Assembly: GCF_000384255.1 (NCBI RefSeq) | Contig: NZ_KB913035.1 | Location: 2,681,093-2,745,092 of the forward strand | Direction of reading: 5' to 3' | Length of the DNA stretch: 64,000 bases | Origin: Methylotenera mobilis 13 | GTDB taxonomy: Bacteria > Pseudomonadota > Gammaproteobacteria > Burkholderiales > Methylophilaceae | Part shown: positions 15,516 through 34,482 of the stretch, piece after piece | How positions within the stretch are numbered: the first letter of the stretch is position 1 | Layout: the number at the start of each line of letters is the position of its first letter | Notes under the pieces: generated by a model | Told to the model about the DNA's origin: nothing | The model's database searches: none | Seen by the model: the letters and a program-made list of their open reading frames with translations, nothing else | Made by a program: the position numbers and the translations under genes

Positions 15516-15661
15516 ATGATTAAACACCTACCAGACAACCATTCGAACAATTTCATCAAACTACGCAATAGTTTGATTAGCGCCACAGGCAAAGCCATTG
15601 GCGACTACAACATGATTGAAGAAGGCGACACCGTACTGGTATGTATGAGCGGCGGCAAAGA
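15516..15661 (+). pseudogene. ttcA: 5' fragment of host ttcA, split by the mobile island
   Basis: Encodes the first 48-49 residues of tRNA 2-thiocytidine synthetase TtcA (MIKHLPDNHSNNF... MSGGKD). TtcA thiolates C32 in tRNA with an Fe-S cluster and a PP-loop ATPase. The frame breaks inside the PP-loop SGGKDS: after the Asp codon it enters island DNA and stops at once (ISTTTTM, stop). The rest resumes in frame at 33721. Joining the AAAGA at 15657-15661 to that at 33718-33722 rebuilds a 301-residue TtcA. Confidence 0.93.
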
Positions 15662-15693
15662 TATTAGCACAACAACAACAATGTAATCTTTAA
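15662..15693. repeat. Left terminal inverted repeat of the ttcA island
   Basis: TATTAGCACAAC (15662-15673) matches the reverse complement of GTTATGCTAATA at 33703-33714 in 11 of 12 positions. A second block TAATCTTTAA (15684-15693) matches the inverted TTCAAGATTA at 33684-33693 in 9 of 10, at nearly the same spacing. The AAAGA just outside (15657-15661) is the presumed crossover core. Confidence 0.85.
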
Positions 15694-15806
15694 TATAAAT
15701 AAATATAATATAATCATGATGTTAAGTTTAAATAAAATTTATATTAAAAAAAATAAAATTATGCCTTATAATATATTTGAGCATATGTATTTTATGTAAA
15801 CATTTA

Positions 15807-17099
15807 ATGATTGAAAACCTTACAGCGCAAACAAGAATTATTATCGAAGATATCGGCTCTGGAGTTAACAAACGTTCAGTCAGAAGAGCCGTACTTTTAG
15901 ATACTCGCAGCGGTCTACTATGTGAGTTGCCCACTTTATATGTCTATCGAAATTTAGGCCAAAAAAGCCATAATACTCACCTTGCAATCCTTAGAGATTT
16001 GGCATTCTACTTAGAATGGTCACTAATAAAAAAATCAAGAAACCCTAATTGGATAGCACCAGAAACACGGGTGAAGAATAATTCACTTGCATTAACAAGA
16101 AGAGAAATTGATGAATTCAGTGGTTGGTGCGACTTCTCTTCTAAAGAGTTAGCCAGAATTCGTTCAATTGACAACCCTAAGCTTCATAGCATTCCATCTG
16201 GTATTTTAGTAGACATTTCCACATCTAACGCTCGTTTACGAAATTTATGCAACTATTTAATATGGCTTACTCAAGACTTTATTGAAGGTGCGCTGAATGT
16301 AGATGACAAATCTCTTATTAAAAGTGAAAAATATAAAAATATAATTTACGAAGCCTTTGAAAAAAACTATAAGTCAGATAAAAAACCTGCACCAGTGTAT
16401 TCTTTGGATTCAAATCAAACAGCGACTTTTTTACAAGCAATTAGCTCTAACAGTATTTTTCCTAATACCAATCATGGTAATAGGGATAAATTAATTGCCA
16501 GATTTCTTTATGAAACTGGACTGAGAGCAGGCGAATGCCTTAAAGTAACTTGCGCAGACATTAAGTATAACTACGAGATACGTCCTGGCAAATTTATAAA
16601 CATAATAAGAGTTAGACATAAACCAAATGATAATGCAGATCCGAGGACTAAAGAGCCTTTATCTAAGACTCTTTCTGGGGATCTAGCCGTTAGCAAGAAC
16701 TTAACCGCGGATTTAATCAAATATATTACAAATGAAAGACGTCTTGCGATTTCATTAAGCTCTAATATAAAAGAACATCCTTATCTATTTGTTTGCCAAA
16801 GTGGTCCAAGTATTGGAGAACCAATTTCACAGCGCAACTTGAATAGAATTATTTCAAAACTCAAATCGTTAAAAGAATTTCCAACATGGTTTACACCACA
16901 TTCTTTGAGGCACACGCACTTAACTGAGATAGCTAACATTGCTCATGAAAAAGGTAAAGATGTAAGAAGCATTTTAATTCAACGTGGCCGATGGGCTAAC
17001 ACCTCCACAATGCCTTCCAGATATAGCCAAAGACACATCATTGATCAAGCTGCAGAGCTAATTGAAGAGAGAGACCGCATCCTTGACAGCCTCAAATAA
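15807..17099 (+). CDS. Tyrosine recombinase, first of the trio (TnpA/GmtY-like)
   Basis: DNA strand-exchange enzyme expected to move the island. 430 residues from the ATG at 15807; an in-frame TTG at 15777 would add 10. The catalytic set is complete: Arg240 in YETGLRAGE, HxxR as His365/Arg368 in TPHSLRHTHLTE, Trp396 in RGRWANT, Tyr406 in PSRYSQ. Residues ~40-165 form a helical SAM-like DNA-binding domain. It overlaps the next gene by 38 bases. The 145 bases to the island end are AT-rich and should hold the subterminal binding sites. Confidence 0.9.
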   Translation: MIENLTAQTRIIIEDIGSGVNKRSVRRAVLLDTRSGLLCELPTLYVYRNLGQKSHNTHLAILRDLAFYLEWSLIKKSRNPNWIAPETRVKNNSLALTRREIDEFSGWCDFSSKELARIRSIDNPKLHSIPSGILVDISTSNARLRNLCNYLIWLTQDFIEGALNVDDKSLIKSEKYKNIIYEAFEKNYKSDKKPAPVYSLDSNQTATFLQAISSNSIFPNTNHGNRDKLIARFLYETGLRAGECLKVTCADIKYNYEIRPGKFINIIRVRHKPNDNADPRTKEPLSKTLSGDLAVSKNLTADLIKYITNERRLAISLSSNIKEHPYLFVCQSGPSIGEPISQRNLNRIISKLKSLKEFPTWFTPHSLRHTHLTEIANIAHEKGKDVRSILIQRGRWANTSTMPSRYSQRHIIDQAAELIEERDRILDSLK

Positions 17100-18612
17100 A
17101 TTTAGCGGATATGACACATTTATAGTTTATTCCAATGAACTTATTCCTGAAGATTTCCCTAAAAGAATCAGACCGATTGATAGCGGTAAGTTAATTGATG
17201 TCAACTTCGATCTTATGACATTAAAGGGAGATGCTGGTGACGCAAGTATAAGACTAAACCAATTATCAGTTGGTTTAACGAAAGCTACCAGTAGCATTTT
17301 TTACTATGTCGTCATTCATGCATTAAATGGAAGAAGAAAAATATCGACAGTTAAACGTTGGATTAATCAATTCTCGATGTTTATAAGAGTCATAAAAGAA
17401 TTAGTCCCAAACCAAATATCCTGTATCAATTTAGCAATGTTTAATTGGTTTAACCAAGATAAATCTCCCTCATCACAGAAGTTGCTTAGATCGTTTATAA
17501 AGTATTGGATTGGTCTCAATATCCCAGGAATTGATTTAGACCTTAAGAGCTATATAAAATCATCAAAATCACCCAAGCCCAAAAGCACTATAAACATCCA
17601 AAATTCCAATCCGCAAGAGCGTCCATTCAGTATGCAGCAAACCAGAAATATCCTTACAAATGTTGAAAGCTTATACATATCAGGTGAATTTAATCCACAA
17701 GATTATTTAATGTGGAGATTAATTATTTCTGAAGCAATGCGACCGTCGCAATTACAGTTATTAGAATTTGGAGACCTAAAAATTGATATGGATATAAATG
17801 GCAACTTGGTTAAAGTTCAAGTTAATGTTCCCATAGTTAAACAAAAAGCCACCCCGGCGCGAGAATACATGATGGAATACACACTTTCTGAGCCAATTGG
17901 TAGAGCGGTAGTAGAGCATATAAAATACATATCGAGTATTACAAAAAAAGAACCAGAACGTACTTTACCAATATTTTGCATTGCAAGAAAAGGTGCGGGA
18001 AAGCAGGTTCTTGTAAACAAAAATGGTATTAATATTACTAGCCGAATCATGAATAGTCGAAAATATATCGCTGGTATTGATGAAGAGCCTCAAGATTTAA
18101 ACTTATTTACTAGAAGGTTTAAACATACGAAACTAACCCATTTAGCGATGTTAGGTGCGCCTCTAGAGGTTTTAGCAAGGGCTGGATTTCAAACGTCCAC
18201 TGGATCACTAACACATTATGTCAATTTAACTGAAGAGGCTTTCGTTAATTATGAAAATCAATTATCAAGCCATCATGAGAACTTACTATCAGCATTCAGA
18301 GGTAAAGTAATTAACAAAAACTTCTCAACAAATCCTGATCTAGACCACCGGATTTTAGATCCAGATATCGATAAAGATGTTGGATCTTGCTCGACTAAGC
18401 CATGCAATGTACTTACCCCATTTGGATGTTATATTTGTCCGCGTTTTGAAGCATTTAAAGATGGGGCGCATCAGGCCGTTCTGGATAGCTTACTTTCCAA
18501 AAAGAAAAAATTAATAAAACTGAAACTTCCTCTTGAGGCTATTACAAGAGATGACTACCTTATTGATGCCGTCAGTTCTGTAATTTCTAGTATCAAAGAA
18601 CAAAATGGCTGA
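17062..18612 (+). CDS. Tyrosine-recombinase-like protein, second of the trio
   Basis: 516 residues if the TTG at 17062 is used; another TTG at 17083 is possible and no early ATG exists. Catalytic positions are partly degenerate: Arg227 (EAMRPSQ) and Tyr386 (LTHYVNL) remain, but the HxxRH box reads RRFKH (351-355), so box II is R-x-x-K. A Cys4 cluster follows (Cys443, 448, 456, 459 in SCSTKPCNVLTPFGCYIC), a likely zinc site typical of TnpB-class proteins. It may be an accessory subunit. The next gene starts inside its 3' end (8-base overlap). Confidence 0.8.
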   Translation: MKRETASLTASNKFSGYDTFIVYSNELIPEDFPKRIRPIDSGKLIDVNFDLMTLKGDAGDASIRLNQLSVGLTKATSSIFYYVVIHALNGRRKISTVKRWINQFSMFIRVIKELVPNQISCINLAMFNWFNQDKSPSSQKLLRSFIKYWIGLNIPGIDLDLKSYIKSSKSPKPKSTINIQNSNPQERPFSMQQTRNILTNVESLYISGEFNPQDYLMWRLIISEAMRPSQLQLLEFGDLKIDMDINGNLVKVQVNVPIVKQKATPAREYMMEYTLSEPIGRAVVEHIKYISSITKKEPERTLPIFCIARKGAGKQVLVNKNGINITSRIMNSRKYIAGIDEEPQDLNLFTRRFKHTKLTHLAMLGAPLEVLARAGFQTSTGSLTHYVNLTEEAFVNYENQLSSHHENLLSAFRGKVINKNFSTNPDLDHRILDPDIDKDVGSCSTKPCNVLTPFGCYICPRFEAFKDGAHQAVLDSLLSKKKKLIKLKLPLEAITRDDYLIDAVSSVISSIKEQNG

Positions 18613-33594: not shown

Positions 33595-33683
33595 AGATTG
33601 AGCTTAAAATGTGCATAAAGTTAACATTTATATTATTATGTAAACATGAATATTAGTTTTCTATATGATTTTATAGTATTTTT

Positions 33684-33714
33684 TTCAAGATTAGCTTATG
33701 GAGTTATGCTAATA
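33684..33714. repeat. Right terminal inverted repeat of the ttcA island
   Basis: GTTATGCTAATA (33703-33714) is the inverted partner of 15662-15673 (11/12), and TTCAAGATTA (33684-33693) of 15684-15693 (9/10). Outside it, AGT then the second AAAGA core copy (33718-33722) leads back into ttcA. Confidence 0.85.
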
Positions 33715-33717
33715 AGT

Positions 33718-34482
33718 AAAGACTCTCATGCCATGCTGATGATTCTGCTTGCATTGCAAGAGCGCGCTCCTATCAACTTTAAACTGATTGCGATGAATCT
33801 TGATCAAAAGCAACCAGGTTTCCCCGCAGATATATTACCTGCCTATTTTGAAAAATTAGGGATTGATTACAGGATTGTAGAAGCAGACACTTATTCAATC
33901 GTTAAAGAAAAAATTCCAGAAGGCAAAACCACATGCTCGCTTTGTTCACGCCTGCGTCGTGGTGTCATCTATACCACCGCTAAAGAATTAGGCGCAAATA
34001 AAATTGCACTGGGCCACCACCGTGATGATATTGTTGAAACCTTATTCCTGAATTTATTCTTTGGCGCAAAAATGAAAGCCATGCCACCAAAACTAGCCAC
34101 CAATGACAAACAAAATATTGTGATTCGTCCGTTAGCTTATTGCAGTGAAAAAGACATTGCCAGCTACGCGCGTCAAATGGAGTTTCCAATTATCCCTTGC
34201 GATTTATGCGGTAGCCAAGAGAATCTACAACGCCAAAAAGTGAAAGACATGCTACAAAACTGGGAGCGTGAGCAACCTGGGCGGATTAATAATATTTTCC
34301 GCGCCATCACCAATGTAGAACCATCGCATTTAGCTGATACTAATTTATATGACTTCAAAAATCTGAGCCAAGCTAAGGCGGATGATGAAGATCCCTTATT
34401 TGGTGACATTGCCAATGAAGGCGCTGCATTGAGCTTAGCCAACACCGAAGGCAGCAAAATTGAGTTTATTCGCAACAAATAA
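33718..34482 (+). pseudogene. ttcA: 3' fragment of host ttcA
   Basis: Continues TtcA from the PP-loop (KDSHAMLMILLALQ) through CSLCSRLRRG, GHHRDD and IIPCDLCGSQ to the natural C-terminus. It lacks the first 47 residues, including the SGG of the PP-loop. The frame extends upstream into the island to an ATG at 33646, so a 278-residue fusion product starting MNISFLYDF is possible, but it has no SGG motif and should be inactive. No internal decay is seen, which suggests recent insertion or continuing excision. Confidence 0.93.

Follow-up and report, generated by a model that had tools for sequence, protein, structure and literature searches.

Host gene and element junctions

The ttcA locus of Methylotenera mobilis 13 raises the question of how a mobile element can persist in the middle of a conserved gene. 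In the stretch of DNA that we analysed (64,000 nucleotides of contig NZ_KB913035.1, positions 2,681,093 to 2,745,092; hereafter the window), the host ttcA is split by an element of ~18,056 bp that carries a complete ttcA of its own. The best explanation is very probably that of disruption and rescue, in which an element resembling those of the GInt and SE groups would split ttcA and supply a replacement TtcA. The junctions, the ends, the recombinase operon (genes A to D) and the carried ttcA are located as follows:

15516..15661, plus strand: 5′ part of the host ttcA up to SGGK, with the left junction (attL; AAAGA at 15657-15661)
15662..15668, plus strand: left terminal repeat TATTAGC, matched in inverted form at the right end
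15777..17099, plus strand: gene A, tyrosine recombinase (ginA/intA position), 440 amino acids (PF00589, 50.5 bits)
17062..18612, plus strand: gene B, recombinase-like (ginB/tfp position), 516 amino acids (NF041502, 172.7 bits, below the cut-off of 350)
18605..21031, plus strand: gene C, large recombinase-like protein (ginC/intB position), 808 amino acids, with homologues at the corresponding place of the operon in relatives
21034..21459, plus strand: gene D, small protein (ginD/srap position), 141 amino acids, at the same place in relatives
21456..22301, minus strand: complete element ttcA with the PP-loop SGGADS, 281 amino acids (NCBIfam NF007972, 470.7 bits, cut-off 272)
33566..33717, plus strand: AT-rich right end with the terminal repeat TGCTAATA (33707-33714)
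33718..34482, plus strand: right junction (attR; AAAGA at 33718-33722) and 3′ part of the host ttcA

The SGGK reading of the host gene ends at the AAA codon 15657-15659 and the gene is resumed by AAAGAC from 33718. AAAGA, common to both junctions, is the sole exact match across them. The end repeats (TATTAGC and its inverted match) are exact over 7-8 bp, and the AT content is 78.7% in the last 150 bp versus 60.8% for the whole element. The original prediction of an 18-kb island that splits ttcA at its PP-loop codons was thus borne out by the two junctions. The same holds for its description of the cargo as a full 281-codon ttcA beside the recombinase operon and clearly diverged from the host gene: the stop of the element ttcA overlaps that of gene D by 4 bp, and its product is 62-63% identical to the host 3′ part.

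A TtcA search in the window genome (one contig, 2.80 Mb) gave four matches, namely the 5′ part, the 3′ part, the complete element copy and a PP-loop protein (24% identical), and no further ttcA beyond the split gene and the element copy. An open reading frame at 33646-34482 fuses the host 3′ half in frame to a start codon of the element, with loss of the SGG of the PP-loop. Since the right junction of Variovorax ZS18.2.2 has a stop in the corresponding stretch, we took this fusion as incidental.

Recurrence of the split and of the carried ttcA

We surveyed 187 genomes of the family Methylophilaceae, from which 17 had a match to gene B. Seven of these matches, including the window's own, are close relatives (75-100%; G000, the window's genome, and G139, G144, G079, G125, G114 and G137). 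In all seven genomes ttcA is cut at the same codon, and six contain a complete element ttcA that is 93-100% identical to that of the window. An eighth carrier, G138, has its ttcA over two contigs, and the left junction leads into a gene A that is identical over the 240 amino acids present. In addition, a scan of contigs by B alignment, drawn from 84,980 species and restricted to genomes with a match to either of two peptide patterns (a lower bound), found at least 11 loci. Four of them were family members already counted and seven were new: Massilia sp. Root133, Roseateles cellulosilyticus, two Variovorax, a Burkholderiales metagenome-assembled genome (MAG), a Gammaproteobacteria MAG and Parendozoicomonas callyspongiae. 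Their B proteins are 38-48% identical to that of the window over the best segment, and each genome has exactly three ttcA matches, consisting of a 5′ part, a 3′ part and a complete copy.

Taken together, ttcA is split at the same codon in 15/15 close relatives, and a complete element ttcA is present in 13/15. These counts support the idea, put forward in the original prediction, that the element may compensate for the disruption of ttcA. The pattern that it proposed to look for, relatives that sit in ttcA and always carry a copy, held throughout for the site, and for the copy in all carriers except the draft bins G137 and G138. The order of genes A to D is kept in the window and in relatives that could be read to D, with a Pfam recombinase match for A only. 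Among 399 genomes of the order Burkholderiales, the only B match at E 1e-40 was the window's own. We also re-searched 24 family genomes, including 20 non-carriers with more than one ttcA match. No second full TtcA was found in these non-carriers; the extra matches were PP-loop proteins (22-30% identity) or broken or contig-cut pieces (G091, G015).

The carried gene adjoins gene D in 10/13 elements. In Roseateles and the Burkholderiales MAG it is kept close to the right end, far from the operon; in Parendozoicomonas it is also close to the right end, and the operon is on a different contig. Relative to the host ttcA it is inverted in 12 of the 13; the exception is Parendozoicomonas, where the orientation is direct.

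Selection on the carried ttcA and co-variation with the recombinase

The dN/dS values of the element ttcA were 0.018/0.69 between the window and G125, 0.036/1.02 between the window and G114 and 0.024/1.57 between G125 and G114. By these ratios, the gene is under purifying selection. Both Cys motifs, CxLC and PCxLC, are present in 10/10 element copies. When pairwise distances were compared by Mantel tests, those of B and the element TtcA were strongly correlated (r 0.90, 10 elements; 0 of 10,000 permutations as high), and those of B and the host fragments less so (r 0.49, 8 elements, p 0.014).

In a quickly built, midpoint-rooted tree of 100 rows, from which the motif columns had been removed, nine of the ten distinct element TtcAs formed one group with 48 SGGADS rows from the database (SH-aLRT 95). 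All ten host fragments fell outside this group, the three from Methylophilaceae among intact genes of the family. A cargo ttcA that groups with its local host had been named in the original prediction as an outcome that would speak against it. The copies stand apart from their hosts in nine cases out of ten, and their distances track the recombinase; the Parendozoicomonas copy behaves differently and is taken up below.

The junction codon is changed in the carried copy

In all 15 split hosts the junction reads SGG followed by AAR (SGGK). All 13 element copies, including that of Parendozoicomonas, read SGGADS with GCN, and the AAR junction codon is absent from them. On the tree, the Ala state requires two changes, one for the main group and one for the Parendozoicomonas copy. 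Among the best 120 of 8,000 scored database relatives, 49 have SGGADS and 71 SGGK. The DNA pattern for SGGADSYTM was found in 9/399 order genomes (the window's own, seven of genus g60, and G360). Around Parendozoicomonas, 22 of 23 genomes have SGGK and one has SGGADS (G590, in which the operon was not searched for). Ala at this place of the PP-loop thus seems compatible with function. The codon may have been changed by the element, or the element may have taken up a gene that was already changed. One database protein, P0112 (404 amino acids), is an SGGKDSYT relative that scores 574 bits, far above other SGGK rows, and is perhaps a chimaera.

Mobility and footprints

The window element was found without mismatch over 18,056 bp in G144, of the same genus (Methylotenera), and in G079, of another genus (Methylophilus), and over the available 14,080 bp in G139, again of the same genus. 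The junctions of these three elements run into ttcA sequences different from the window's, and the neighbouring gene sdr also differs between the window and the identical-element genomes (80-84% at the amino acid level). The host ttcA 3′ parts of the window and G114 are 99.6% identical in amino acids, whereas their elements are 76-80% alike in A to C, which points either to independent entries at one site or to an exchange of the element.

Thirteen elements could be read on both sides. In 11 of them attL and attR disagree either in the Lys codon or in the base that precedes it, and in G137 and the Burkholderiales MAG they agree. NAAR is found in all 13 attR, which would fit an earlier insertion that was likewise in a ttcA. 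This is only suggestive, because AAR is also provided there by the host.

Possible traces of in-place replacement in genus g60

In the two SGGK genomes of genus g60, sdr and ttcA point in the same direction, like in the window. In five of the seven SGGADS genomes (5/9 of the genus), ttcA is inverted at the sdr locus, four times directly beside sdr and once with two genes between; no sdr was seen in the examined stretch of the other two. The inverted orientation is that of an element ttcA relative to the host ttcA. The SGGADS gene is the sole ttcA in 7/9 genomes of the genus, none of these seven genomes has a B match at E 1e-40, and the one g60 row that could be assigned on the tree (P0207) falls within the group that holds the element rows. 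These data suggest that an element inserted and later decayed while its ttcA survived as a lasting replacement (loci L159-L163). It is also possible that the SGGADS ttcA of g60 was taken up by another route.

Distant relatives behind ssb and inside recJ

The ten remaining B matches in the family are distant (21-30% identical), and no second ttcA was found in these genomes. The gene upstream of A, tested in eight of them, encodes SSB in seven (six directly adjoining, and in G073 ~3 kb away); genes A to D of the window are 21-35% identical to these operons, which lie mostly behind ssb. Relatives at unrelated sites without a ttcA copy, which the original prediction had named as a counter-argument, were hence found only at this distance.

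One distant operon has a different site. In G158 (L098, L187; G158:C1, ~2036-2087 kb) it interrupts recJ at the DHH codons. Beside the operon is the 5′ part of recJ (to amino acid 162), and the 3′ part (amino acids 158-562, 96.5% to RecJ of G141) is ~49 kb away. The island contains a complete RecJ homologue of 591 amino acids, which is 29% identical (TIGR00644, 346 bits, cut-off 397), inverted and ~430 bp from the recJ 3′ part. At its DHH codons the homologue has synonymous DNA differences, which may be plain divergence. The combination of a split recJ and a carried recJ is one case.

Comparison with known systems

SE-6283 elements of Vibrio are inserted in bcp and have a homologue of this gene among their own, 'as if it complements' (PMC9345347). 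The statement in the original prediction that a whole foreign replacement is much less usual therefore had to be corrected, and the rescue idea is already in print for bcp. In common with SE-6283, the window element has a four-gene recombinase cluster at the left end, sits inside a host gene and carries a homologue of it (PMC9345347, PMC10214605). It further shares with SEs short imperfect inverted terminal repeats and attR bases brought by the donor: in SEs, 6 bp of attR come from the donor's left flank, and circularisation leaves no empty site (PMC10214605). SE-6283 differs in its target, bcp, and its Vibrio hosts (PMC9345347), and SE terminal repeats are 13-19 bp long versus the exact 7-8 bp here. 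A changed core in the carried copy, immunity or lasting replacement was not found in the available parts of the SE-6283 account (PMC9345347, PMC10214605).

GInts likewise have four ordered genes at the 5′ end, three recombinase-like and one small, with cargo that begins at the stop of the fourth gene, an AT-rich other end and site specificity (PMC5385486). Recombination of GInts requires all four genes, which serves as a criterion of the group. Their ends are imperfect direct repeats of 10-17 nt; the exact match at the junctions of the window element is AAAGA. A reported GInt site is ssb, behind which the distant relatives of the window operon in the family sit (PMC5385486). According to the authors, insertion of a GInt probably does not completely inactivate the target, and neither a carried target copy nor the word ttcA was found in the available part of that account (PMC5385486). 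Two Pseudomonas aeruginosa GInts are located at the end of a duplicated nrdA (PMC5385486), where an element-borne copy is conceivable. It is by layout, cargo start and AT-rich end that the window element resembles GInts, and by terminal repeats and footprints that it resembles SEs.

Other systems share single features. The Rac prophage of Escherichia coli also integrates in ttcA and alters TtcA, but changes four N-terminal residues, leaves one ttcA and on excision restores the older form (PMC4632033). Tn552-II of Staphylococcus aureus is a tnpABC-type transposon with a gene like its target, as here; its carried gene contains a copy of an att motif (i-att2), and a rescue role was not found in the available part of the account (PMC12486829). 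Synthetic Cleave-and-Rescue gene drives likewise disrupt a gene and bring in a recoded version of it. They are engineered nuclease systems in sexual organisms and thus an analogue, not a member of the group. In a search of open-licence papers by titles and starts of abstracts, no element was found with an insertion in ttcA or recJ and a copy of the interrupted gene in its cargo.

Proposed disruption and rescue, and its alternatives

In the proposed mechanism, A to D would recombine the element site-specifically into the PP-loop codons of ttcA, at GGN-AAR-G. Insertion would destroy the host gene, and the element would provide a complete replacement TtcA with Ala for the PP-loop Lys. As its DNA lacks the AAR bases, the replacement should escape insertion and not itself become a target. 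Judging from SEs, the host ttcA would stay broken when the element circularises; if an empty site is lacking here too, the break would be permanent, and the host would depend on the element copy for s2C32 thiolation of tRNA. Decay of the element would then leave the element ttcA as the only ttcA. This would explain how the element survives on a mid-gene site of a conserved gene, why hosts retain it, and how native housekeeping genes are replaced in place by foreign copies. Target immunity can be tested through the changed core codon, and annotation pipelines may mistake carried copies for ordinary paralogues.

Several observations weigh against this explanation. Distances of the element TtcA also correlate with those of the host fragments (r 0.70, 8 elements, p 0.0014), so that some host signal is present as well. 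The Parendozoicomonas copy departs from the others in its orientation and in its place on the tree, beside the fragment of its own host. A complete ttcA is absent from G137 and G138; both are draft bins that lack most of the element, and we blame missing contigs, which is not proven. The three genomes with an element identical to the window's (G139, G144, G079) are metagenome bins. SGGADS TtcAs occur in eight other genomes of the 399 without a detected element, and the changed codon hence need not be an adaptation of the element. In G125, gene C (L063 8848-11268) has two stop codons, so that the copy of G125 may be inactive and not all element copies need be active. Finally, expression and activity of the replacement are predictions from sequence.

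Could ttcA be ordinary cargo that was captured once and is kept by linkage to the recombinase, with no rescue role? Its place beside gene D in 10/13 elements would allow such hitchhiking. We consider it quite unlikely, as Roseateles and the Burkholderiales MAG retain ttcA at the opposite end of their elements, its dN/dS is low, the Parendozoicomonas copy has another origin or history, and an element in recJ carries recJ (G158) just as one in bcp carries bcp (PMC9345347, as far as available). That the element TtcA gives a new property, such as other tRNA targets, protection from tRNA-attacking toxins or a fit to element genes, with the ttcA site being secondary, is also unlikely. The Lys-to-Ala change in the PP-loop and a protein about 63% identical to the host TtcA would fit such an altered enzyme. 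The Cys motifs are nevertheless retained in all ten copies, the SGGADS protein as the only TtcA in 7/9 g60 genomes points to ordinary function, and the recJ and bcp cases have the same layout with no tRNA role. A second host ttcA enclosed by the element after insertion fits Parendozoicomonas, whose copy goes with its own host fragment in direct orientation. As a general origin, host duplication is very improbable: nine of ten distinct element TtcAs stand apart from their own hosts, and a second full TtcA was lacking in every non-carrier of the family that had given more than one match.

Disruption and rescue of ttcA thus stays our preferred explanation. What is new here, compared to bcp, are two further target genes, a ttcA lineage across Beta- and Gammaproteobacteria that co-varies with its recombinase, a rescue copy that lacks the junction codon, and indications of a lasting replacement. 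Tentatively, at slightly below an even chance, disruption and rescue could be a general life style of GInt- and SE-like elements: codons of catalytic motifs would be targeted (the ttcA PP-loop, recJ DHH, and bcp in print), the gene broken for good, the replacement unhittable as its DNA differs at the core, the host made dependent and housekeeping genes permanently replaced. If true, this would be a natural counterpart of cleave-and-rescue gene drives.

Other genes of the element

The remaining genes of the element are:

22298..24934, minus strand: HsdR-like gene, 878 amino acids (TIGR00348, 437.7 bits; PF11867, PF18766)
25393..33216, no strand assigned: other cargo by Pfam and NCBIfam, with two pilin-like genes, a DUF4440/SnoaL-like gene, an AraC-type regulator, a sorbosone-dehydrogenase-like gene and a small multidrug resistance family gene

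The HsdR-like gene had no hsdM or hsdS partner among the element reading frames tested, and hsdR and the later window cargo were not found in stretches L056 (G125) and L057 (G114). Gene C had no Pfam or NCBIfam match and gene D no informative one. Membership in the gamma-mobile-trio group was rejected, as A scored 21.9 bits against GmtY (cut-off 340) and no other Gmt match was obtained for A to D at E 0.001. B had no relatives in IMG/VR viral contigs, PLSDB plasmids or phage records, so that no vehicle could be identified. Gene B has 103 homologues among the matches listed. A class-wide search with NF041502 in 369 genomes gave three matches, the window's own, G852, which is likely behind ssb (a 167-amino-acid open reading frame precedes A), and G811 (L199), which has a GInt-like operon.

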